This document shows positions 451 to 64,000 of a DNA stretch of 64,000 bases, in pieces. The notes under the pieces were generated by a model. That model was given only the letters and a program-made list of their open reading frames with translations, ran no database searches and was not told the DNA's origin. The DNA lies in the NCBI GenBank assembly GCA_029573495.1, contig JAKQEI010000198.1, forward strand, positions 1-64,000. The letters are read 5' to 3'. The first letter of the stretch is position 1; the number at the start of each line of letters is the position of its first letter. The position numbers were made by a program, and so were the translations under genes. The stretch comes from Bacteroidota bacterium. GTDB taxonomy: Bacteria; Bacteroidota; Bacteroidia; Flavobacteriales_F; PHOS-HE28.

Positions 451-547
451 GCTTCCCAAAGAAAGGAACTCCAGGTCTTACGGCCACGGCACCATTTGAC
501 CTGAGCAGGGTGCTGGTCACGATGTTCGCATCGACGACGAACCTCAC
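419..547 (-). pseudogene. PIN-domain (VapC-like) toxin, N-terminal fragment
   Basis: The GTG start overlaps the TGA of the upstream antitoxin (GTGA), the normal translational coupling of a vapBC pair. The product starts VRFVVDANIVTSTLLRSNG, the first beta strand and conserved Asp of a PIN ribonuclease fold. After about 20 residues it runs into unrelated sequence that is the out-of-frame 5' region of the HNH gene, and it stops after 42 residues instead of the usual 130 or so. The later acidic residues of the PIN active site are absent, so it is expected to be inactive. Confidence 0.75.
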
Positions 548-756
548 GAGGCGATGCGCCTTTGGCGTTTGCGGAAGGCCGCCTCATCGATCTCCTCCGC
601 CAGCTTGCCCGCTGCGGCCTGCGTCACCTTCTTGTAGTTGCGCGTGAGGGACAGGTAGCGCAGGTAGCGGATCGCCTGTTCCAGTTGCTCCGGATCCAGT
701 GCACCGGAAACGGTGATCACCGTTTCCTTCTTGGACTGTTTTACTTGGACAGGCAT
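544..756 (-). CDS. Small antitoxin-like protein, partner of the broken PIN gene
   Basis: A 70-residue protein, MPVQVKQSKKETV followed by a helix-rich region (DPEQLEQAIRYLRYLSLTRNY) and a basic tail. Size, position and GTGA coupling to the PIN fragment match antitoxins of vapBC-type modules in Bacteroidetes; no DNA-binding fold can be named with certainty. A TATCTTTG box lies 7 nt upstream of the ATG, supporting this start. With the toxin truncated, it is an orphan antitoxin. Confidence 0.65.
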   Translation of the reverse strand: MPVQVKQSKKETVITVSGALDPEQLEQAIRYLRYLSLTRNYKKVTQAAAGKLAEEIDEAAFRKRQRRIAS

Positions 757-763
757 GACATAT

Positions 764-771
764 CAAAGATA
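764..771 (-). promoter_or_regulatory. -7 box of the antitoxin gene
   Basis: TATCTTTG on the minus strand, 7 nt before the ATG at 756. It matches the Bacteroidetes -7 consensus TAnnTTTG exactly. No clear -33 TTTG element was recognised. Confidence 0.55.
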
Positions 772-932
772 GAACGACGGCACACGAAGCGCACAAGCGA
801 CCTGCTTGCGGTACGTCCGGGCTACTGACAGAACTCCCGGAACGAGGCGGCGCATATCTCCTGGCAACGCCCGGCTAGCCCGGCATCCGCGGGGCGGCGG
901 CGGGCACGAGCGCGTGCGTGTTGCTGTCGCTT

Positions 933-952
933 CCGACCGTAACTTCGGTCGG
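933..952 (+). promoter_or_regulatory. Palindrome bracketing a -7 box (probable operator-promoter)
   Basis: CCGACCG (933-939) and CGGTCGG (946-952) form a perfect 7-bp inverted repeat. The 6-nt loop begins the box TAACTTCG (940-947). The palindrome ends directly against the ATG at 953. A repressor bound here would cover both the -7 element and the start codon, the arrangement expected for an autoregulated antitoxin-type gene. A hairpin in the nascent RNA is the alternative reading. Confidence 0.5.
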
Positions 953-1279
953 ATGTACACACCGCCCCTTTATGTGTCCGAGGCGAATGGAGTCGTGGTA
1001 GCCGTGCAGGTCCCCATCGCCGACTGGATCGATCTGCTCGAGCGGATCTGTGACCTGGAAGAGCAACTACGGCCCACGACCAAATTGGACCGGCAGTTGG
1101 ACGACCTGGTTCGGCAACGTACGCGGAAGAAGAAGGACCTGAGCCTGGATGCCATCGGCTTCATCGGCACGGGCAGACCGCTGTCAAAAGCGGAAAGCCT
1201 GTTGATCTCCGCGCACATCCAACTTCAGCGAGGAACGCGCCCTTCAGCTAGGAGCAAGGTGTCAGCCCGTAAGCCTTGA
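953..1279 (+). CDS. Hypothetical protein, possible antitoxin or regulator
   Basis: 108 residues from MYTPPLYVSEANG. The first part (VVVAVQVPIADWIDLLERI) looks like a short beta-strand plus amphipathic helix, followed by a charged helical region (DLEEQLRPTTKLDRQLDDLVRQRTRKKK). I do not recognise the family. The start is chosen because TAACTTCG lies 5 nt upstream; an in-frame upstream ATG at 806 would place the promoter inside the gene. The last 10 or so codons overlap the antisense HNH fragment at 1248-1415, so the native C-terminus may have been replaced by rearrangement. Confidence 0.45.
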   Translation: MYTPPLYVSEANGVVVAVQVPIADWIDLLERICDLEEQLRPTTKLDRQLDDLVRQRTRKKKDLSLDAIGFIGTGRPLSKAESLLISAHIQLQRGTRPSARSKVSARKP

Positions 1280-1415
1280 ACAGGAACGTTACGCCCGCCG
1301 GCAGATCGGTGAAGTACGGCCCCGGCGAAGGGCGCCAGAAGTTCACCTCATCCAGCTTCCGCTCGGAGAGGAACGCGAACCATTCATTATCTGTGACGCC
1401 GGTCCAGAACTTCAT
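1248..1415 (-). pseudogene. Truncated second copy of the HNH endonuclease 5' end
   Basis: Begins MKFWTGVTDNEWFAFLSER and continues LDEVNFWRPS...LPAGVTFLFK, nearly the same as the first 47 residues of the gene at 1-450, then diverges to AYGLTPCS and stops at codon 56. It keeps its own promoter-like box TAGCTTCA (1422-1429), 6 nt before the ATG. The two copies differ in sequence, so this is an older duplication or a remnant of a paralogue, not a recent tandem copy. Confidence 0.75.
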
Positions 1416-1421
1416 GCGGCG

Positions 1422-1429
1422 TGAAGCTA
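1422..1429 (-). promoter_or_regulatory. -7-like box of the truncated HNH copy
   Basis: TAGCTTCA on the minus strand, 6 nt before the ATG at 1415. The spacing is the same as for intact genes in the window, which implies the fragment was once an expressed gene with its own promoter. Confidence 0.4.
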
Positions 1430-1461
1430 AAGGTCATCCCGGCATCGAACACACCTCGGCT

Positions 1462-1469
1462 TACCTTTG
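1462..1469 (+). promoter_or_regulatory. -7 box of the DUF433 gene
   Basis: TACCTTTG, an exact TAnnTTTG match, 5 nt before the ATG at 1475. It decides between that ATG and the in-frame one at 1421. Confidence 0.55.
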
Positions 1470-1474
1470 GGTTC

Positions 1475-1681
1475 ATGAACGCCAACCCCGAACTGCTCAA
1501 GCGCATCACGGTGGATGACCGCATCTGCAACGGCAAACCGGTGATCCGGGGCATGCGGATCACGGCGCAGACCGTGCTGGAGTTCCTGCTGCCGGGTACG
1601 CCGGAGGACGAGGTCCTGGAGCAGTATCCGATGCTGGAACGGGAGGACCTGGATGCGTGCAAGCAATTCGCCAATACTTAG
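1475..1681 (+). CDS. DUF433 domain protein (VapB45-type antitoxin)
   Basis: 68 residues containing LLKRITVDDRICNGKPVIRGMRITAQTVLEFLLPGTPEDEVLEQYPMLEREDL, the full DUF433 pattern (I-x-x-G-K-P-x-I-x-G-x-R-I-T) with a helix-turn-helix-like core. DUF433 proteins usually precede a DUF5615/PIN-like toxin gene. Here the next gene is hicB, so the partner is missing and this is a solitary antitoxin. The usual length is about 70-80 residues, so it is complete. Confidence 0.8.
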   Translation: MNANPELLKRITVDDRICNGKPVIRGMRITAQTVLEFLLPGTPEDEVLEQYPMLEREDLDACKQFANT

Positions 1682-1699
1682 TTTCATCCGAACCCGTTC

Positions 1700-1879
1700 A
1701 TGGCACAGCTCACCTACCGCATATTGCTGACCCGCGAACCCGAGGGCGGGTTCACTGTGAACGTGCCGGCCCTGCCTGGCTGTGTCACCTTCGGCGAGAA
1801 CATCGACCATGCGATGGCCATGGCGAAAGAGGCCATCGAACTGTACGTGGAAACGCTGCAAGCAGAAGCGGTAAGATGA
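1700..1879 (+). CDS. HicB-like antitoxin
   Basis: 59 residues: MAQLTYRILLTREPEGGFTVNVPALPGCVTFGENIDHAMAMAKEAIELYVETL. The GGFTVNVPALPGCVT strand and the AKEAIELY helix are the signature of the HicB partial RNase H fold. HicB normally neutralises HicA, a small mRNA interferase. The gene ends right after the core fold and its TGA overlaps the start of the HicA remnant, so the end may have been trimmed by the same deletion that removed most of hicA. Confidence 0.8.
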   Translation: MAQLTYRILLTREPEGGFTVNVPALPGCVTFGENIDHAMAMAKEAIELYVETLQAEAVR

Positions 1880-1971
1880 CCATCATGCCCATGCACATGC
1901 GTGACCTTCCCAAAGGCACCATGCTCGCGATCCTCAAACAAGCAGGGATCGACAAGGACGAGTTGTTGTGA
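1876..1971 (+). pseudogene. HicA toxin, C-terminal remnant
   Basis: The 31-residue product MTIMPMHMRDLPKGTMLAILKQAGIDKDELL matches the last third of HicA (V/T-I-P-M-H-x-R-D-L-x-x-G-T-L-x-A-I-L-K-Q-A-G). The N-terminal half, including the conserved catalytic His in the G-S-H motif, is absent. The same frame continues upstream into hicB as SRSGK, as if one deletion joined the 3' parts of hicB and hicA. The fragment is probably not a functional toxin. Confidence 0.75.
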
Positions 1972-2567
1972 GCATTTCCCCACACATCCACTGCACCGCC
2001 AAGCTGACCAAGCTGCTGAAGGTGAAGCCTGCCGTTGCGCCGCCCGATGCCGACGGCTGGAACGCCAACCTCTTCCCCATCGCGGGCCGCAAGTGCATCA
2101 TCCTGGTGCACAAGGCCACCTTCTTCTCGCTCATCAAGTACGATGTGGTGAAGGCCGACCTGAAGGACTTCCCGGCGTTCTTCCGGAACCTGTTGCGCGA
2201 GCAGCTCCTGCTGCAATGGCCCATGCACGCCGCCGCCATCGATGCGTGGCTGGGCACCATGGCCCCTGCCGTGCTTTCCACCAGCGACAACGACAAGCGC
2301 ACCATCGGCGTGATGAACCGCTTCGTGGACGAGTTCACCTTCAAGTTGGACTGGTTCGGAACACCGCTTCAGGAACCTCACCTACGTGTGGCGAATTGGA
2401 ACTTGAACAACAACGTGGTCGGCGGCGGCACGAACAGGAACGCCTACACCAACCCGGAAGAGCAGATGGCCCGCCTGCTGGGTTTGCCCTACGACCGCGT
2501 GGATGCCGAACAGCGCTATCAGCAAGCGAAGCATGTCTTGGACCGGATGCACTTGCGGCTAAACTGA
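1968..2567 (+). CDS. DUF6933-like protein
   Basis: 199 residues. The N-terminal pattern CTAKLTKLLKVKP...GWNANLFPIAGRKCIILVHKATFFSLIKYDVVKADLKDF resembles the DUF6933 family, of unknown function and commonly found near mobile or toxin-antitoxin genes. The GTG start overlaps the stop of the hicA remnant (GTGA), so it may be translationally coupled to the hicBA relic. No catalytic motif is evident. Later in-frame starts are possible. Confidence 0.65.
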   Translation: MSISPHIHCTAKLTKLLKVKPAVAPPDADGWNANLFPIAGRKCIILVHKATFFSLIKYDVVKADLKDFPAFFRNLLREQLLLQWPMHAAAIDAWLGTMAPAVLSTSDNDKRTIGVMNRFVDEFTFKLDWFGTPLQEPHLRVANWNLNNNVVGGGTNRNAYTNPEEQMARLLGLPYDRVDAEQRYQQAKHVLDRMHLRLN

Positions 2568-2575
2568 CCTCTCCT

Positions 2576-2751
2576 GGCCTTGAGGCTTCGAGGCCTTGGG
2601 GCTCATGGGCCTGTGGGCTTGTTGGCCTGAAGCCTATCGGCCTTGTCGGCTTGCTGGCCATTTGGCTCAAAGGCTTAATGGCTCATGGGCCTGTGGGCTT
2701 ATCGGCCTGTGGCCTATAGGCCTTGGGCTTGTAGGCCTGGGCGATCGGCCT
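2576..2751 (+). repeat. Degenerate 8-bp tandem repeat (GGCYTNNN), about 20 units
   Basis: GGCCT or GGCTT recurs in mostly 8-bp steps (for example GGGCCTGT, GGGCTTGT, TGGCCTGA) through the whole span between the DUF6933 gene and the AraC gene. Reading frames stay open across it but encode low-complexity Gly/Leu/Ala strings. The reverse complement of the same pattern occurs at 60905-61110, where it is inside a coding region. Confidence 0.8.
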
Positions 2752-2823
2752 CATGCCCCATCGTACTTTTCGGTGCCTTGCACGCCGGGCCACCCGAGGG
2801 CCCGGTGCTTCCCCCGCACCCCC

Positions 2824-3684
2824 ATGAGCGAGATCCCCTTCCGGAGCCTGGCCACCGCACCCACCTCCTTGCGGCTCTCGGACGAATTCGACATCCGCTC
2901 CATGGAACAGGTGCTGGGCGGCAACGATCTGGTGCAGGCGCTGCACCGGCACGACCACTACTTCCTGCTGGTGCTCACCACCGGGGAAGGCATGCACGAG
3001 TGCGACTTCCGGCCGCACACCCTGGAGCCTCACACCATCTACGCGATGCGGCCCGGGCAGGTGCACCGGCTGGAGTTGAAGGCGGGCAGCACGGGCTACA
3101 TCCTGCAGTTCAAGGCCGGGTTCCTGGCCACGAGCGAGCAGGGCGCACGACAGGTGCTGCGCCGGACCGGCCATGTGGAGGTCTTCCGCACCACGGCCGA
3201 ACGCTACGCCGAACTGCGGATGCTGCTGGACCGGATCGCCCGGGCGTACACCGCCCACCAGGAGGGATACCTGCACCTGGTGCGCGCCTACCTGGGCGCC
3301 TTTCTGGCGGACCTTGTGCTGCAGGCGCCCGTGCCCGCGCCGGCGAGCGGCGCCAAGGGCTACACGCAGGAGCGGCTGGAGGAGCTGCTGGAGCTGATCG
3401 AGGCCAACGTGCACCGGGTGAAGGAGGTGGCCGCCTATGCGGAACGCATGCACCTCTCCACCTTCCAGCTGAACGCCATCGCAAAGGCCGGCACGGGCCG
3501 CACCTGCTCCGAACTGATCACGGACCAGCTGATCCTGGAGGCGAAGCGCTACCTGCTCGCTACCACCGACCAGGTGACCCAGGTGGCCGACCGCCTCGGC
3601 TACGAGGACCCCTCCTACTTCATCCGCTTCTTCAAGAAGCACACGGGGCACACACCGGAGGGTTTCAGGCAGAAGTCGCGGTAA
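2824..3684 (+). CDS. AraC family transcriptional regulator with N-terminal cupin
   Basis: 286 residues. The N-terminal part (residues 35-100) has a cupin-like strand set including HDHYFLLVLTTGEG and MRPGQVHRLEL, a likely ligand-sensing barrel. The C-terminal 100 residues carry two helix-turn-helix motifs, the second with QVADRLGYEDPSYFIRFFKKHTGHTPEGFR, typical of AraC/XylS. The ATG at 2824 is chosen because upstream in-frame codons only translate the 8-bp repeat. The membrane protein, FAD oxidoreductase and DUF4386 genes downstream on the same strand are plausible targets. Confidence 0.9.
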   Translation: MSEIPFRSLATAPTSLRLSDEFDIRSMEQVLGGNDLVQALHRHDHYFLLVLTTGEGMHECDFRPHTLEPHTIYAMRPGQVHRLELKAGSTGYILQFKAGFLATSEQGARQVLRRTGHVEVFRTTAERYAELRMLLDRIARAYTAHQEGYLHLVRAYLGAFLADLVLQAPVPAPASGAKGYTQERLEELLELIEANVHRVKEVAAYAERMHLSTFQLNAIAKAGTGRTCSELITDQLILEAKRYLLATTDQVTQVADRLGYEDPSYFIRFFKKHTGHTPEGFRQKSR

Positions 3685-3926
3685 TGCCATTTCGCATCGC
3701 GGACGGCCTTGAGGTGCGCCGTTTGTTTTTCGCAGGACGATACGAAGAGGTCGTCGCGTAGCCGGAGCTACGGGACGATCACTTCGGAGAAGTAATACGG
3801 AAAAGAAACAAGCAGATCGGGTCGTTCTGCGTTGCGAATTGGCATAGAGTACCGATCGATCACGCGTTCGTCCTATCCCCTCGGGAGGGGGTCGGGGTTG
3901 CTTTGCCCTCGCAAACAACACGACCC
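3685..3926. other. Intergenic, no gene recognised
   Basis: 242 bp between the AraC gene and the small membrane protein. It holds a short hairpin (GTAGCCGGAGCTAC near 3757) and a CCTCGGGAGGG inverted repeat near 3881; neither is followed by a T tract, so no terminator is claimed. Confidence 0.5.
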
Positions 3927-4151
3927 ATGAAGACGAAAATGAAACTGCTGGCCTCCCTGAAGATCTGGGTGGTCATCTACCCCTCCATCACCGGCTTCCT
4001 CGCCCTGTTCGGCGAGCCGCTCGCCGCGCTGCCCCTGTACCAGCGCACCTTCCTGCTCACCATCTGCCTGGTGCCCTGGATCGTGTTCGCCGGTGTGCCC
4101 CTCGTGGACCGCATCATCCGCGCCTTCTCCACCAAGCCCACGCAGGCCTGA
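3927..4151 (+). CDS. Small two-helix membrane protein
   Basis: 74 residues from MKTKMKLLASLKIW. Two hydrophobic segments (WVVIYPSITGFLALFG and FLLTICLVPWIVFAGVPLV) are joined by a short loop. No family is recognised with certainty. It sits 37 nt before the FAD oxidoreductase gene on the same strand and may be cotranscribed with it. Confidence 0.6.
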   Translation: MKTKMKLLASLKIWVVIYPSITGFLALFGEPLAALPLYQRTFLLTICLVPWIVFAGVPLVDRIIRAFSTKPTQA

Positions 4152-4188
4152 GGCCCCGGAACCGGAATGCACAGCACGGACAACTCCC

Positions 4189-5190
4189 ATGGACCGACGG
4201 CACTTCCTCACCCTGGGCGCCACAGCTACCGGTGGAGCGCTGATGCCGCTGCGGGCCCTGGCATATCCAACACCTGAACGCATGAACGAGGACCAACACT
4301 TCGACGCGATCATCGTGGGCGGCAGCTACGCCGGCCTCGCCGCGGGCATGGCCCTGGGTCGTGCCCTGCGGCGCGTGCTGATCGTGGACAGCGGCCTGCC
4401 CTGCAACCGCCAGACCCCCTTCTCCCACAACTTCATCACGCAGGATGGCGTGCCACCACACCTGATCGCAGCCAAGGCGCGCGCCCAGGTGGAACGCTAT
4501 CCCTTGGTGGAGTTCAAGCGTGGACTGGTCACGGGCGCGTCCATCACGGACGAGGGTTTCGATGTGCGCCTGGAGGACGGAGCCGGATATCGGGCGAAGA
4601 AGCTCGTTTTCGCCACGGGCGTGCGGGATGTGCTGCCGACCCTCCCCGGCTTCGCGGAATGCTGGGGCATCTCGGTACTGCACTGCCCCTACTGCCACGG
4701 CTACGAAGTGCGCGATGAGGCCACCGGCGTGCTGGGCAACGGCGAGCGGGGCTTCGAACTCGCGCGCCTGATCTCCAACTGGACCAGGGACCTCACGCTG
4801 TTCACCAACGGACCTTCCACGCTCACAGAAGCCCAAGCAGCCCAATTGCGCGCGCACAGCATCCGCATCGTGGAAACATCGGTGACGGAGCTGGAGCAGG
4901 TGAAGGGGCAGCTGCAGCGCATCCTCTTCACGAATGGATCGGCAGCGGCCATCCATGCCCTCTATGCGATGCCCGCCTTTGAGCAGCACTGCACCCTTCC
5001 ACAAGAGCTCGGCTGCGCGCTCACGGACGAGGGCTACCTGAAGGTGGACGCGCAACAGCGTACGAGCATCCCCGGCATCTACGCCTGCGGCGACAGTACC
5101 CTTCGCCTGCGCACGGTGGCCAACGCGGTGGCCACGGGCACCACGGCCGGCATGATGCTGAACAAGGACCTGATCACCGGAACATTCTGA
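4189..5190 (+). CDS. NAD(P)/FAD-dependent oxidoreductase, thioredoxin reductase-like
   Basis: 333 residues. The FAD-binding GGSYAGLAAG motif, an HCPYCHGYEVR segment with the CxxC pair typical of thioredoxin-reductase-like flavoproteins, a second nucleotide-binding region (GVLGNGERGFELARL) and a closing PGIYACGDST motif are all present. An N-terminal MDRRHFLTLGATATGGALMP resembles a twin-arginine or hydrophobic leader and is absent from most relatives. Translation may instead begin at the ATG at 4282 (MNEDQHFD), which would give a cytosolic enzyme. Function is probably disulfide or small-molecule redox chemistry. Confidence 0.85.
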   Translation: MDRRHFLTLGATATGGALMPLRALAYPTPERMNEDQHFDAIIVGGSYAGLAAGMALGRALRRVLIVDSGLPCNRQTPFSHNFITQDGVPPHLIAAKARAQVERYPLVEFKRGLVTGASITDEGFDVRLEDGAGYRAKKLVFATGVRDVLPTLPGFAECWGISVLHCPYCHGYEVRDEATGVLGNGERGFELARLISNWTRDLTLFTNGPSTLTEAQAAQLRAHSIRIVETSVTELEQVKGQLQRILFTNGSAAAIHALYAMPAFEQHCTLPQELGCALTDEGYLKVDAQQRTSIPGIYACGDSTLRLRTVANAVATGTTAGMMLNKDLITGTF

Positions 5191-5203
5191 ACCACCACAC
5201 ACC

Positions 5204-5923
5204 ATGAACACCAAGCTCACCACCAAACGACACGCCATCCTCACCGGCCTGTTCTTCATCACCGCCACGGTCACCGCCATCATCGGGTTGCTGCTGTACA
5301 AGCCCGTGATCGATGCGGGCGACCCCTTCACCGCCGCGCGCCTGCATGCCGACCGGATCGGCTGGGGCGCGTTCTTCGAAGCCCTCCTCGCCCTTGCGAA
5401 CTGCGGCACGGCCGTGATGATGCTGCCGGTGCTCAGCAGGGTATCCCCGCGCCTTGGGCCCGCCTACATGGTGTTCCGCGCGCTGGAGGTGGTGGCCATC
5501 GTGGTGGGTGCCGTAAGCATGCTCGCGCTCGCTTCCATCGCCGGCTCGCTGGCGCCGGACGCATCGGGTGCGCAAGTGGTCGGTCGCGCATTGATCGCGG
5601 TGCACGACTGGACCTTCGTGCTCGGCCCGCACTTCTTCCTGGGGGTGAACACGCTCATCTACAGCTCCCTCTTCTTCCGCTCGGGGCTGGTGCCACGTCC
5701 CTTGGCGGTACTCGGCATCACCGGCGCAGGGCTCATCCTGGTCGTAGGTGCGATCGAACTGCTGGGTGTGATCACCCCCTACTCCACCACCACCATGATG
5801 CTGGCGATGCCAATCGCGGTGTATGAGATGGTGCTGGCGGGCCGCTTGATCGGCAAGGGGTTCAATACGGCCGACCGGGATGGAGTGCCTCCCATGGAAT
5901 TGATCGATGGGAGCGCCTCGTGA
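5204..5923 (+). CDS. DUF4386 family membrane protein
   Basis: 239 residues with about six hydrophobic segments. The N-terminal TTKRHAILTGLFFITATVTAIIG, a central HDWTFVLGPHFFLGVNTLIYSSLFFRSGLVPR and the following LAVLGITGAGLILV are diagnostic of DUF4386. The function of the family is unknown. It begins 13 nt after the oxidoreductase stop, so the two are probably one transcript. Confidence 0.85.
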   Translation: MNTKLTTKRHAILTGLFFITATVTAIIGLLLYKPVIDAGDPFTAARLHADRIGWGAFFEALLALANCGTAVMMLPVLSRVSPRLGPAYMVFRALEVVAIVVGAVSMLALASIAGSLAPDASGAQVVGRALIAVHDWTFVLGPHFFLGVNTLIYSSLFFRSGLVPRPLAVLGITGAGLILVVGAIELLGVITPYSTTTMMLAMPIAVYEMVLAGRLIGKGFNTADRDGVPPMELIDGSAS

Positions 5924-57665: not shown

Positions 57666-57816
57666 GAGCACCTTACCCTGATACTTACCGCAAGCCGGTG
57701 CGCGGGCAACGGTTGGATGTGCTACCGCACCCATCACCCCCACCCTTACCACCAACCCCTCCAACGCAAGTCACTCCGGGCGAAGGAGGCTCTGCGACTG
57801 AGACCCGGAGTCTCAC
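57666..57816 (+). repeat. 151-bp direct repeat, left copy
   Basis: It matches 58503-58653 with four mismatches in 151 bp. It starts GAGCACCTTACCCTG and ends with the 29-bp GGCTCTGCGACTGAGACC element. The GIY-YIG gene lies between the two copies. Confidence 0.85.
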
Positions 57817-57917
57817 AAATGCACATTGCACTTATACGGCTCTGCGACCGAAGAGCCGGAGTCTCACCAATGCATATAGAACGAAGGAGGCTCTGCGACT
57901 GAGACCCGGAGTCTCAC
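57788..57917 (+). repeat. Three copies of the GAGAC/GTCTC stem-loop element
   Basis: Copies at 57788-57816, 57838-57867 and 57889-57917 share the core GAGACCCGGAGTCTCAC or GAAGAGCCGGAGTCTCAC after GGCTCTGCGAC. The inner GAGAC and GTCTC pair across a 5-nt loop. Units are separated by 21 bp of AT-richer text containing ATGCATAT or ATGCACATTGCAC. Confidence 0.8.
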
Positions 57918-57958
57918 AAATGCACATTGCACGCGCGAGGCTCCTGATACCAATATCC

Positions 57959-58267
57959 TCATTCAAAGTCCCGGTAGTCATACCAGCCATCACTCAGGTC
58001 CTTCCAGTCCGGATTCATCTTCTTGATCAACTCCTCCTTCCATGCACGCCGCCAATGCTTGATGCGCTTCTCCATCCGGATGGCTTCGCCGATGGTCCGG
58101 TACTGCTCGAACCAAACCAGCTTGTGGCATAAGAACTGATCCGTGAACGACCCCGGGAAGGTGCCCTTCTTATGCTGAAGGGTGCGCTTCATCAGCATGC
58201 TGGTCACACCCACATAAAGTGTGGTGTTGTGCTTGTTCGTCATGATGTACACCCAGCCGCCTTTCAT
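57959..58267 (-). CDS. GIY-YIG nuclease family protein, embedded in repeats
   Basis: 102 residues, the full length for the single-domain UPF0213-type. The pattern is GGWVYIMTNKHNTTLYVGVTSMLMKRTLQHKKGTFPGSFTDQF, then KLVWFEQYRTIGEAIRMEKRIKHWRRAWKEELI and NPDWKDLSDGW. The catalytic Tyr pairs, Arg and Glu positions of the fold are present. Such solitary proteins are numerous in Bacteroidetes and their role is unproven. GACCTTCA, 4 nt upstream, supports the start. It is flanked on both sides by copies of the GAGACCCGG repeat. Confidence 0.85.
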   Translation of the reverse strand: MKGGWVYIMTNKHNTTLYVGVTSMLMKRTLQHKKGTFPGSFTDQFLCHKLVWFEQYRTIGEAIRMEKRIKHWRRAWKEELIKKMNPDWKDLSDGWYDYRDFE

Positions 58268-58502: not shown

Positions 58503-58653
58503 GAGCACCTTACCCTGATACTTACCGCAAGCCGGTGCGCGGGCAACGGTTGGATGTGTTGCCACACCCATCACCCCCACCCCTACCACCAACCCCTCCA
58601 ACGCAAGTCACTCCGGGCGAAGGAGGCTCTGCGACTGAGACCCGGAGTCTCAC
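58503..58653 (+). repeat. 151-bp direct repeat, right copy
   Basis: It is the partner of 57666-57816, offset by exactly 837 bp, with four mismatches. Confidence 0.85.
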
Positions 58654-58790
58654 CAATGCATATTGAACGAAGGGAGGCTCTGCGACCGAAGAGCCGGAGT
58701 CTCACAAATGCACATTGCACGTACGACGCTCTGCGACGGAGACCCGGAGTCTCACAAATGAAACGTAGGCACCACTTGTGAGACTCCGGA
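58625..58790 (+). repeat. Three more stem-loop elements plus one inverted half-copy
   Basis: Copies lie at 58625-58653, 58676-58705 and 58727-58755. An inverted copy of the 3' half (GTGAGACTCCGGA) is at 58778-58790. The last direct and inverted copies form a perfect 14-bp stem, CCGGAGTCTCACAA with TTGTGAGACTCCGG (58744-58757 and 58776-58789). Confidence 0.8.
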
Positions 58791-58868: not shown

Positions 58869-58894
58869 ACGACCCCCGCCGTCGCGGGGGTCGT
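58869..58894 (-). terminator. Rho-independent terminator of the FN3 gene
   Basis: An 11-bp perfect stem, ACGACCCCCGC with GCGGGGGTCGT, has a 4-nt loop. On the minus strand it is followed by TGCTTTTGG, a short T tract. It lies about 95 nt beyond the stop of the FN3 gene on that strand, with nothing between. Confidence 0.6.
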
Positions 58895-59815: not shown

Positions 59816-60061
59816 TCACTGCACCGTAACCCCATCCCCGTTCGTGCCCCCGGTGTGCAGGTGCGGTACCTTCAGCAGCTCGCACAGCGGCACACGCAGG
59901 TGCAAGGCCAGCAGCTCGGCCAGCTCCAGGCTGATGCCCGGGTAGTGGTCCATCAGGATCTTCGAGAGCGTGCTGGGATCGATCCGCATCGCTTGGGCCA
60001 GCGTAGTGCCCTTCAGGCCCAGCACTTTCATCCGGGCGCGGACGCGGCTGCCATCAAGCAT
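59816..60061 (-). CDS. XRE-family helix-turn-helix protein
   Basis: 81 residues. RVRARMKVLGLKGTTLAQAMRIDPSTLSKILMDHYPGISLELAELLALHLRVPLCELLKV is a complete five-helix Cro/C1-type DNA-binding domain. It lies upstream of and divergent from the restriction-modification gene, separated by the 21-bp repeat array, so it could be a controller or copy-number-type regulator of that locus. There is no direct proof. Confidence 0.8.
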   Translation of the reverse strand: MLDGSRVRARMKVLGLKGTTLAQAMRIDPSTLSKILMDHYPGISLELAELLALHLRVPLCELLKVPHLHTGGTNGDGVTVQ

Positions 60062-60692
60062 GGCCGTGGAGTTCGCTCGAAGGCCGCTCCGTGCTCAGCA
60101 CCCCGCGAGAATGGATCGTATCGCCGCTTCCCATGATCATGTCGTGGCGTCATTGGATCATGTCGCGCCGCACAGTGATCATGTCGTGGCGCTCAGTGAT
60201 CATGTCGCGCCGCATAGTGATCATGTCGTGGCGCTCAGTGATCATGTCGCGCCGCATAGTGATCATGTGGTGGCGCTCATTGATCATGTCCCGGCGCACA
60301 TTGATCATGGGGAGGCGCTCATGGATCATGTCGCGCCGCACAGTGATCATGAGGTGGCGCGCATGGATCGCTGGGCGGCTCCCCTCCATGACCTTCCGGG
60401 CCGATCGGACCGTCCTCCGCCCATCCAGCACCCCCACCAGCTCCCTCCCGCACAGCACAAGGTCCTCGACCACGGCGCTGCGCAGAACGGTCCCGGTGCT
60501 CATGGGTGGGTGGGTGGTGGCCAGGGGCGCGGCAGTGCCCGCCGGCAACAACGAAAATAACGGTCGCCCTGCATCGGTCATTGTGTAGGTCTACGGATGC
60601 CCACCCCCGTAATTCTACGGGGTTGGCCGGGGCCTATCCGGCAGCCCGGGTTGCGGAACCTTGGTTAGCTTGGGCGTCGGGAAGCCCACGCT
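60062..60692. other. 631-bp intergenic containing the 21-bp array
   Basis: The first 70 bp and the 320 bp after the array hold no recognised gene. Reading frames on both strands stay open across the array because the unit length is a multiple of three; none has an independent domain. TAGCTTGG at 60666-60673 is a weak -7-like box 19 nt before the ATG at 60693. Confidence 0.5.
60135..60372 (+). repeat. Exact 21-bp tandem array, 12 units, GATCATG at each start
   Basis: GATCATG occurs at 60135, 60156, 60177, 60198, 60219, 60240, 60261, 60282, 60303, 60324 and 60345, always 21 bp apart. A degenerate GATCGCT sits at 60366. Odd units mostly carry TGGCGCTCA and even units CGCGCCGCA, giving a 42-bp super-period. 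Most copies read TGATCA, a palindrome with a GATC core. A 21-bp period keeps all sites on one face of B-form DNA. Confidence 0.92.
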
Positions 60693-63600
60693 ATGGGGCC
60701 CGCGAAAAGCACGATGAAGGAGCAGTTGGATGCAGCGGCGCAGCGCCTGCTGGCCCACTTACAGGAGCACGGCTCCCTGGGCAATGGCCGGGCGCGCGAC
60801 CTGCTGGGGATGGACGAAGCAGGCTATGTGGCGCTCCGCGATGGCCTCGTGGCCCGTGGCCTGGTGGCCAAAGGCCGGGGCCGTGGGGGGAGCATTTCAC
60901 TGGTGGCCGGAGGCCAGGAGGCCGCTAAGCCTCAAAGCCAACAGGCCCCTGAGCCAAAGGCCTACAAGCCACTAGGCCGCAAGCCCAAAGGCTCGGTAGC
61001 GCAAGGCCAGGAGGCCCAAGGCCTACAAGCCACAGGCCCACAGGCCAATGGCCAAGCGGCCAGCAAGCCTGTAAGCCAGAAAGCCAAGAAGCCTGTAAGC
61101 CCAGAGACCATTGAGCCCCTGGCCGAAAAACCCAAAGCCCGCAAGGCCAGCACCCCCGCCATCGACAAGTACTACACCAGTGTCCAGAAGATCAAGGACT
61201 GGGGAGGTAGCGGTAAGGAGACTGCCATCCGCTCTGCATTCTATACCCTGCTGAACCACTATTCTGAGAAAAAGGACTTGATCCTGATCACGGAACTGAG
61301 TGTCGAAGGCAGGCTTGGGAAGAAGGTCACCCCTGATGGTACCCTGAAGAACGCCTTGCGCCTGGACTATGGCCATTGGGAAAGTAAGGACGAGGCGGAC
61401 GACATTGACGAGGAGATCGAGAAGAAGTTCAAGAAGGGCTACCCCGACCGCAACATCCTCTTCGAGGACAGCCAGACCGCCGTGCTGATCCAGGAGGGGC
61501 GTGAGGTAATGCGGATCTCCTTCAAGGACCCTGAAAAGCTCGACGCTATCCTCAACGCCTTCGTGAACCACAAGCATCCCGAGGCGCGCAAGTTCGAGGA
61601 GGCCCTGGCGCAGTTCAAGACGGACATCCCCCAGATCCTGGAAACGCTGCGCGACCGAATCGAGTTGGCGCGCGGGCAGAACGAGAAGTTCAAGGCTGCG
61701 GCGGATACCTTCTGGACCCTGTGCAAGCACGAGATCAACCCGGAGATCACAGAGGCCGACATCCGGGAGATGCTCATCCAGCACATCCTCACGGCGGACA
61801 TCTTCAACAAGATCTTCGACGAGCCTGACTTCCACCGGCAGAACAACATTGCCCGCGAGCTGGAGGAGCTGCTGGCCACCCTCTTCACCTACGGCGAGCG
61901 CAAGAACCTGCTGGCCACACTGGAGCATTATTACGAGGCCATCAACGCCGTCGCCGCCAGCATCAAGGACCACCACGAGAAGCAGCAGTTCCTGAAGATC
62001 CTCTACGAGAACTTCTACAAGGTGTACAACCCCAAGGCCGCCGACCGCCTGGGCGTGGTGTACACCCCCAACGAGATCGTGCGCTTCATGATCCGCAGCA
62101 CCGATCAGCTGCTGCACCGCCACTTCGGCAAAACCTTGAGCAGCCGCAACGTGGAGATCCTGGACCCCGCCACCGGCACGGGCACCTTTCTCACTGACAT
62201 CATCGACCACCTGCCCAAGCAGGACCTGGATTACAAATACAAGAACGAGATCCACGCCAACGAGGTGGCCATCCTGCCCTACTACGTGGCCAACCTCAAC
62301 ATCGAGTTCACCTTCAAGCAGAAGATGGGGTACTACGCCGAGTTCCCCAACCTGTGCTTCGTGGATACGCTGGACAACACCGGCGCCCTGCAGTTCGGCG
62401 GCAAGCAGGACAGCCTCTTCGGCGTAAGCAGCGAGAACAGCACGCGCATCAAGCGGCAGAACGAGCGCAAGATCAGCGTGATCATCGGCAACCCGCCCTA
62501 CAACGCCAACCAGCAGAACGAGAACGAGAACAACAAGAACCGCGCGTACCCGCTGATCGACAAGCGGATCAAGGATACCTATGCGAAGAGGTCACGAGCA
62601 TCGAACAAGGCCAACGTGTACGACATGTACACTCGGTTCTACAGGTGGGCCATGGATCGGATCGACCGAAATGGCATCATTGCATTTGTTACCAACCGCT
62701 CTTTTCTCGAGGGCAAAGCCCTAGATGGATTCCGCGCAGTAGTGCGCGATGATTTTGCACACTGCTATGTCATCGATACGCACAGCGACGTGCGGGATAA
62801 CCCTCGCATCGCCGGCACCAGCCACAACGTGTTCGGCATCCAGACCGGCGTGGCCGTGTGCTTTCTGGTGCGGCAGGAGCAGAAGTCCGGTCCTTGCCGT
62901 ATCCACTACACCGAACTGAGCGATGAACTGCGCAAGGAAGAGAAGCTGGACTGGTTCAGGTCCGCTGAGGATTTGAGTCATGTGGCGTTTAGGGAGATTA
63001 CACCTGATGCCAAGGAAACGTGGCTTGAGCAAGCACATGATGGTTCAGGCGATACCGTACCTCTGATCGATAAGGAAGATCGTGGCGCGCTAACCTCGCA
63101 GACCATCTTTTCGAACTATGCCCTTGGTGTCAATACCAATAGGGATGAGTGGGTCTTTGACTTCAATGACCGAGATCTCCTGTCGCGGATGAAGTACTTC
63201 ACAAGGACCTACAACGACTTGGTTCAGGCCAATGACCGTAGCTATCCCGATGTGATCAAATGGAGTTCTAGCCTTAAAGACAACCATGGCCGAGGAGTTC
63301 AAGGGCAATTCGCTGAGGCGCATCTGAGACGAACGATGTACAGGCCATATGTACGCCTGTGGCACTACACAGAGAAGTTGTTCAACCACCGCCTGACTGA
63401 GAACCACTACGAGTTCTACGGCTCCCAACTGGATAGAGACAATCCGACTATCACGTTCATAACGGGTACTGCTAAGCCCTTCAGTGTACTTGCGGTGAGT
63501 TCTCTCTTCGACATGAACTTTGTGAGCCCAGCAGCCGGGGGCACCTATGGGATGCCTCTAATGCGGTATGGGAAGGATGGTGCGAGCTCTGCCAACCTTA

Positions 63601-64000
63601 CCGACTGGGGCCTCGACCAGTTCCGCACGCACTACGGCGACAGCGGCATCACCAAGGAGCAGGTGTTCCACTACGTGTACGCCGTGTTGCACGATCCCGT
63701 GTACCGCGAGAAGTATGCCCTGAACCTGAAGCGCGAGTTCCCGCGCATCCCCTTCTACCCGGACTTCCACCGCTGGGCCGCCTGGGGCAAGGAACTGATG
63801 GACCTGCACATCGGCTACGAAACGGCCGTGCCCTACCCGCTGGAGCTGGTAAACAGCCAGAGCAAGGCCGAGGCAAAGAAGAAGAAGGCTACGCTACTGG
63901 ACAGCCTGGCCGAACCCGAGCCGCTCTACCAGCGCGAATACGCCCCCAAGGTGAAGCTGAAGGCCGACAAGGCCGCCGGTATCATCGAGCTGGACGAGCT
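60693..64000 (+). CDS. Single-chain restriction-modification enzyme, type IIG/ISP-like (partial at the right edge)
   Basis: About 1102 residues are visible and the frame stays open to the edge. Residues 8-70 are a winged-helix-like domain (LLAHLQEHGSLGNGRARDLLGM). Residues 72-150 are a Lys/Gln/Pro/Ala linker encoded by the 8-bp repeat. A nuclease domain follows (IRSAFYTLL, then LDYGHWESKDEADDIDEEIEKKFKKGYPDRNILFEDS, with a probable D...ExK site). The adenine methyltransferase has motif I DPATGTGTFLTDII and motif IV IIGNPPYNANQ. The C-terminal part should hold the target-recognition domain. No helicase motor is seen. The ATG at 60714 is an alternative start. Confidence 0.85.
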   Translation, partial: MGPAKSTMKEQLDAAAQRLLAHLQEHGSLGNGRARDLLGMDEAGYVALRDGLVARGLVAKGRGRGGSISLVAGGQEAAKPQSQQAPEPKAYKPLGRKPKGSVAQGQEAQGLQATGPQANGQAASKPVSQKAKKPVSPETIEPLAEKPKARKASTPAIDKYYTSVQKIKDWGGSGKETAIRSAFYTLLNHYSEKKDLILITELSVEGRLGKKVTPDGTLKNALRLDYGHWESKDEADDIDEEIEKKFKKGYPDRNILFEDSQTAVLIQEGREVMRISFKDPEKLDAILNAFVNHKHPEARKFEEALAQFKTDIPQILETLRDRIELARGQNEKFKAAADTFWTLCKHEINPEITEADIREMLIQHILTADIFNKIFDEPDFHRQNNIARELEELLATLFTYGERKNLLATLEHYYEAINAVAASIKDHHEKQQFLKILYENFYKVYNPKAADRLGVVYTPNEIVRFMIRSTDQLLHRHFGKTLSSRNVEILDPATGTGTFLTDIIDHLPKQDLDYKYKNEIHANEVAILPYYVANLNIEFTFKQKMGYYAEFPNLCFVDTLDNTGALQFGGKQDSLFGVSSENSTRIKRQNERKISVIIGNPPYNANQQNENENNKNRAYPLIDKRIKDTYAKRSRASNKANVYDMYTRFYRWAMDRIDRNGIIAFVTNRSFLEGKALDGFRAVVRDDFAHCYVIDTHSDVRDNPRIAGTSHNVFGIQTGVAVCFLVRQEQKSGPCRIHYTELSDELRKEEKLDWFRSAEDLSHVAFREITPDAKETWLEQAHDGSGDTVPLIDKEDRGALTSQTIFSNYALGVNTNRDEWVFDFNDRDLLSRMKYFTRTYNDLVQANDRSYPDVIKWSSSLKDNHGRGVQGQFAEAHLRRTMYRPYVRLWHYTEKLFNHRLTENHYEFYGSQLDRDNPTITFITGTAKPFSVLAVSSLFDMNFVSPAAGGTYGMPLMRYGKDGASSANLTDWGLDQFRTHYGDSGITKEQVFHYVYAVLHDPVYREKYALNLKREFPRIPFYPDFHRWAAWGKELMDLHIGYETAVPYPLELVNSQSKAEAKKKKATLLDSLAEPEPLYQREYAPKVKLKADKAAGIIELDE
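60905..61110 (-). repeat. 8-bp degenerate repeat inside the restriction enzyme coding sequence
   Basis: On the minus strand the pattern is GGCYTNNN, as in the intergenic array at 2576-2751. On the coding strand it reads ARGCCNNN in 7-9 bp steps. Because 8 is not a multiple of 3, each unit is read in a shifted frame, giving KPQSQQAPEPKAYKPLGRK-like text. It occupies exactly the linker between the winged-helix and nuclease domains. Confidence 0.75.

Follow-up and report, generated by a model that had tools for sequence, protein, structure and literature searches.

Phased 21-22-bp dyad arrays upstream of a family of small fn3-domain protein genes in Bacteroidota and other bacteria

Introduction

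Replication iterons are direct repeats of about 17-22 bp set in helical phase. The C-boxes of restriction-modification controllers comprise only a few sites, and in the multi-operator regions of HTH regulators (LuxR/NarL, XRE) dyad sites lie by the regulator gene, upstream of the target. In the centromere-type arrays of plasmids, repeats form a block ahead of an operon, and the small protein that binds this block is also the repressor of the operon (PMC5016525).

Here we analyze a repeat array that has something of each. It lies in a 64,000-nt stretch of DNA, hereafter the window, which begins contig JAKQEI010000198.1 of the Bacteroidota assembly GCA_029573495.1. The array shares with iterons the helically phased direct repeats of about 17-22 bp, and with plasmid centromeres (type Ib parS, type II parC with ParR, type III tubC with TubR) the upstream block of short repeats and the phased spacing. 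Like HTH multi-operator regions, it has dyad sites by a regulator gene and upstream of a target and, as with C-boxes, a small XRE gene lies by a restriction-modification gene with candidate operators between them.

Results

The array in the window

Eleven full 21-bp units, all beginning with GATCATG, run across 60135-60365 with zero indels, and a degenerate unit follows directly at 60366. Over 60135-60369, self-identity was 0.75 at lag 21 and 0.89 at lag 42, and just 0.10-0.12 at lags 20 and 22; TRF reported a 42-bp unit with 5.6 copies and 89% match. Among all 200-bp segments of the 64 kb, the highest lag-21 identity was that of this array (0.755; the runner-up reached 0.44) and, since the lag-21 maximum over 50 block shuffles was 0.42, the array is not a product of chance. 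The pattern occurs in a single place in its own 4.07-Mb genome, an assembly of 306 contigs with an estimated contamination of 8.5%. Self-identity, TRF and the shuffles thus bear out the exact 21-bp period and 42-bp super-period given in the preliminary description of this DNA, and the position that it gave, between a divergent XRE gene and a restriction-methylation gene, is confirmed as well. Its count of twelve units stands for eleven full ones, the twelfth being the degenerate last unit. Of the two decayed units at the fn3-side edge (Table 1), the second begins with GATC.

Taken alone, the window array gave a z of 2.2 (p 0.028) in a test for dyad symmetry of its units. The proposal that the alternation of two half-types (A and B) reflects paired sites survives in part: the A/B differences follow the dyad in the window array (p 0.02), but they do not across 14 arrays with a 42-bp super-period. 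A dyad test of the 42-bp unit by full column permutation was set aside, because its null destroys the 21-bp period. We also considered whether the super-period always consists of alternating complementary units; this is supported for the window array and for that of sister locus L036, but not generally.

Gene calls in the window (Table 1) are based on open frames and composition. The restriction-methylation gene is divergent from the fn3 side, and about 500 bp separate the end of the array from the fn3 start, a distance explained by the intervening XRE gene. Near the array, no Bacteroidota promoter of the known type was detected.

Table 1. Features of the window around the phased array.
Feature	Coordinates	Strand	Evidence and remarks
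Phased array of 21-bp units, 42-bp super-period, centre TGATCA, dyad-symmetric	60135..60369	.	Self-identity, TRF, dyad test
Two decayed units in register with the 21-bp array, at its fn3-side edge	60093..60134	.	
fn3-family gene, 206 aa	58988..59608	-	Pfam fn3 E 3.6e-9, family search, AlphaFold2, array control
Small XRE/HTH_3 gene, 81 aa, between array and fn3 gene	59816..60061	-	Pfam HTH_3 E 1.5e-5
Type ISP/IIG-like restriction-methylation gene	60693..64000	+	Continues beyond the window end; open frame of 1191 aa
Terminator-like hairpin directly 3' of the fn3 gene	58869..58894	-	Consensus match; chance expectation for the region about one

Other features of the locus were noted in passing. 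Two more intergenic tandem arrays, of about 50-52 bp and with a GAGACCCGGAGTCTC inverted repeat, lie at 57781-57933 and 58618-58760, on either side of a GIY-YIG nuclease gene (57959-58267, minus strand). The N-terminus of the restriction-methylation protein (60693-61150) has a winged-helix-like segment and a low-complexity linker, and hsdM-type proteins of sister species (L033, L034, L135) share this N-terminal segment.

Arrays accompany an fn3 gene family within the genus

A scan of sister genomes for three GATCA boxes spaced 21 bp yielded arrays in several congeneric species. Their units were quite different, and most of the arrays lay directly upstream of the gene of a homologous small fn3-domain protein. 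The fn3 protein was then used as query, so that the association could be tested on loci picked independently of any array. About 134 usable matches to the family came from 32 of the 45 congeneric genomes, with seven copies in the genome of the window and up to 19 in one genome. We studied 66 loci from the genus, 60 found by the protein alone and six through their arrays.

Across the 825 kb of DNA around these 66 fn3 copies, TRF found at 49 loci an array that measures 100 bp or more, has a period of 21 or 22 bp or a multiple, and lies upstream of the fn3 gene at a distance of no more than 1,050 bp; the other 759 kb gave zero arrays of this kind and 23 TRF rows, all of other periods. Measured by self-identity, the best repeat lag was 21 or 22 at an identity of at least 0.5 upstream of the gene in 52 of the 65 testable loci, and downstream of it in 0 of 66. 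The median distance from the end of the array to the fn3 ATG is 240 bp, and seven of the 66 loci gave an array signal that was weak, absent or not confidently testable. The fn3 loci thereby present a repeat block upstream of an operon, and in one AT-rich sister locus a promoter-like TTG-N19-20-TAnnTTTG, read directly from the sequence, stands between array and start codon. Comparison across genomes shows the array as an upstream, presumably cis-acting, element of the fn3-family gene.

The preliminary description had assigned the array to the XRE and restriction pair, and this assignment does not hold: most sister arrays have neither gene, and the owner is the fn3 gene. The search of relatives for the same unit and neighbours, which it had suggested, did find arrays, but their units differ and their usual neighbour is the fn3 gene, which it had not mentioned. 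As evidence against its claim it had named arrays in unrelated contexts without the XRE or restriction gene, together with no binding by the XRE protein, and most sister arrays are of the first kind, which counts against the specific claim. Its more general idea, an iteron-like binding array for a regulator, fares better in that dyads, phasing and an HTH gene at 33 of 66 loci (below) agree with it, though not in its tie to this XRE gene and the restriction gene.

In two sister species, arrays (L033 and L034) adjoin hsdM and are without a full fn3 gene. Near the L034 array there is a possible trace of the last 20 fn3 residues, a weak match (E 0.003). Both arrays are probably remnants, which suggests that arrays can persist after the fn3 gene is lost. 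The two orphan arrays, L033:6591-7163 (27 units) and L034:6929-7249 (15 units), are 96% identical between the two species and differ by a change in the copy number of units. One clade (L136, L146, L154, L162, L166) has a divergent gene of an uncharacterised family (MCLKAVGVEL...) on the upstream side of the array, at about -1500 to -730 relative to the fn3 ATG; the L146 member had no match in Pfam, NCBIfam or PHROG.

The fn3-array pair beyond the genus

A GTDB scan with the family alignment located loci in other Bacteroidota, Verrucomicrobiota, Geomonas, Methylococcaceae, Ignavibacteriae and a Rhodospirillales MAG, several of these taxon names being MAG labels. Among the non-genus loci, 45 of 63 upstream regions reached an identity of 0.55 or more at a lag close to some multiple of 20-22 bp; only 2 of 67 downstream regions reached the threshold, at lag 21 or 42. 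Two non-genus loci (L263 and L272) have a 21/42-bp array downstream, not upstream, of the fn3 gene. The family is patchy in the sampled phylum: 17 of 395 genomes had a match of any kind at 1e-10, and full-length members were present in about six of the 17, the genome of the window included. Searches of plasmid and phage collections with one family member gave no match. Isolates carry the pair too (for example Lacibacter cauensis, Limnovirga soli and Sphingobacterium nematocida), so it is open to experiment.

Some neighbours recur at these loci. In Verrucomicrobiota, the gene just after fn3 is collagen-like or tail-fibre-like at about eleven loci (L219, L225, L226, L238, L244, L245, L253, L269, L272, L285), and a tyrosine-recombinase-like gene, its family judged by eye, is found near four non-genus fn3 loci (L217, L218, L285, L288).

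What the arrays keep and what varies

The letters of the units are private to each locus. Similarity of units between loci falls to about background once protein identity is below about 70%, the unit motif shared by all is only about one bit above a column-permuted null, and unit sequences evolve apart faster than the fn3 proteins do. What is kept across loci is the period of 21-22 bp, the dyad symmetry of the unit and the location some 240 bp ahead of the start codon. Dyad symmetry was assessed by permutation of unit columns, which does not keep dinucleotide content. It gave a Stouffer z of 16.5 for 56 arrays of the genus and of 19.2 for an independent set of 42 non-genus arrays; some loci are closely related, so these values overstate independence, and the sign of the effect is consistent. 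The loci thus offer dyad-symmetric sites in helical phase, as an array of HTH operators does. All six 22-bp arrays fall in one clade of fn3 proteins.

Between the array and the fn3 start, some loci (L135, L141, L148, L169, L160, L031) also have a pair of locus-specific 18-bp palindromes with 7-bp arms and a 4-nt centre, about 26 bp apart, at about -130 to -60 before the fn3 ATG. Their mispairs, few in number, gave no evidence of RNA.

Regulator and restriction genes beside the arrays

An HTH gene of XRE or LuxR type adjoins the array at 33 of the 66 genus loci (within about 1.6 kb, 27 with a LuxR-type gene and six with an XRE-type gene), and Pfam confirms XRE and GerE examples among them. Such genes are about 19-fold denser near the arrays, with 33 in 206 kb as opposed to 4 in 483 kb farther away. 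At four of the six loci with 22-bp arrays, an XRE gene is directly upstream of the array. In the non-genus flanks examined, a LuxR-type match was found at about five of 69 loci and an XRE match at 0 of 69. Since HTH genes are common at arrays in the genus and rare outside it, the regulator is a lineage-level partner, not a universal one.

The link to restriction genes is real at the population level. All three N6_Mtase genes in the genome of the window are within 5 kb of an fn3 locus, and in the fn3-bearing genomes of the genus this is true of 21 of 83, where about 1.1 would be expected (about 19-fold); the expectation assumes uniform placement and ignores the clustering of mobile genes, so that its p value is not to be taken literally. 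Some sister loci repeat the order of the window, with the array flanked by a divergent restriction gene on one side and the fn3 gene on the other. Near array locus L037, PADLOC identified a very large helicase (482-5788) resembling DruE of Druantia.

Discussion

What may read the arrays

That the array belongs to the fn3 gene comes from comparison among loci; binding, regulation and the identity of the reader we infer from sequence. We lean, by a modest degree, towards reading the window array as a control region for the fn3 locus, made of cis-regulatory dyad sites two helical turns apart that are bound by a dimer. The array would act as double-stranded DNA, on which a dimeric protein would fill, probably with cooperativity, one dyad site after another along the same helix face; the nucleoprotein stretch so formed would set the expression of the genes that start alongside it. 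In the window these would be the minus-strand XRE-fn3 unit and, possibly, the restriction gene that diverges from it. A plausible candidate for the reader here is the XRE protein, whose gene separates the array from the fn3 gene; it might form an autoregulatory loop, a step in which we have less confidence; at sister loci, a LuxR-type or another XRE regulator next to the array may play the part. Against an operator array speak the rarity of adjoining regulators outside the genus and the near privacy of the unit letters, since units that diverge faster than the proteins and share about one bit at most are unusual for operators.

A broader possibility, which we put forward tentatively and think less probable than not, takes that privacy as the point. 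The fn3 protein and its own private array would be a two-part element found across several phyla and, in this genus, clustered by restriction-modification genes, in which geometry is inherited and letters are not, so that each locus has its own address; the reader would be the fn3 protein or a factor sensing structure, and the element might serve self-recognition or the control of defence islands.

That the fn3 protein itself is the reader we consider rather unlikely. Each paralogue would bind its own private array through its helical part, for autoregulation or as a filament with one subunit per 10.5 bp. The fn3 protein is the sole partner of the array conserved outside the genus, the period of the array tracks the protein clade, and the family members are basic (median pI 9.1) and predicted from their hydrophobicity to be non-secreted. 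AlphaFold2 modelled the window protein (pLDDT 96) with an N-terminal three-helix bundle and a C-terminal fn3 domain. However, no DNA-binding fold was recognised in it: as a whole it matched fn3 domains, and the helical part alone had no significant match in the PDB. The units also diverge faster than the proteins, which further argues against direct reading by the fn3 protein. Annotation gave little else, as no NCBIfam family fits the protein, four family members had no match among PADLOC models, and matches in PHROG were weak and mostly to the fn3 part of tail proteins.

It is less probable still that the arrays are selected for DNA structure, a hairpin or cruciform or the helical phasing as such, sensed by a general host factor and leaving the letters free. 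The conservation of geometry with private letters fits this well, and the consensus units of some arrays (e.g. L138, L142 and L158) are near-perfect hairpins, but many dyads are short and imperfect, that of the window included, and the clustering of local HTH genes at the genus arrays points elsewhere.

Transcription of the array into a repetitive structured RNA, its dyads forming a chain of hairpins, appears very doubtful. G.U-tolerant pairing on the transcribed strand, the mark of such an RNA, was not seen: on the gene strand, G.T mispairs numbered 906 and A.C mispairs 1065 in the genus, and 579 and 624 in the second set. With no excess of G.T, no strand skew and no Rfam match, a hairpin RNA from the sense strand is therefore unlikely, and it is simpler to suppose that the array acts at the DNA level.

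We give little credit to a switch of the restriction gene sensitive to GATC methylation, as the preliminary description had considered. The window array does have twelve phased GATC sites and an adjoining methyltransferase gene, but GATC is present in at least half of the units at only 12 of 56 arrays, and an N6_Mtase gene lies within 8 kb of only 24 of 134 fn3 loci, so that such a switch fails as a general function. A repeat peptide, also raised there and here taken as one of seven-residue repeats, can be dismissed almost entirely: the period of 21 divides by three, and stops are few or absent in three of the window array's six frames, but 22-bp arrays exist, the open frame varies among sister arrays so that none is common to them, and some frames have a stop in every unit.

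Significance

The joint occurrence of a gene family and its array across phyla, with geometry kept while the letters vary freely, strongly indicates function, and does so in a way that searches for sequence conservation miss. The loci serve as numerous natural replicates for the question of what reads such arrays, and they tie an uncharacterised fn3 family to restriction-modification neighbourhoods.

Comparison with known systems

No ParM, TubZ or ParA partner was recognised at the window locus, where the operon-like unit consists of the XRE and fn3 genes, and none of the recurring neighbour families in sister loci was recognised as a motor gene; nor was a replication-initiator gene recognised beside the window array, whose neighbours are the XRE, fn3 and restriction genes. 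We therefore do not class the array with centromeres or iterons. Unlike plasmid centromeres, the arrays described here are chromosomal, with many loci per genome, an fn3 gene replaces the motor-protein gene, and the units are mirror-symmetric at 21-22 bp. They differ from iterons in that the family has up to 19 copies per genome, each with letters private to its locus. HTH multi-operator regions usually have few sites, whereas a typical array here has about 15-20 units over 300-400 bp, and most non-genus loci are without an adjoining regulator. In contrast to C-boxes, the array goes with an fn3 gene, and many loci have no restriction gene nearby. This pairing of a phased array with the gene of a small soluble fn3-domain protein is apparently widespread and undescribed: we found no description of it in the open-access literature, a scope that does not prove novelty. 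Within that literature, the fn3-array pair is without a described counterpart, while a phased operator array is in itself a known kind of mechanism.
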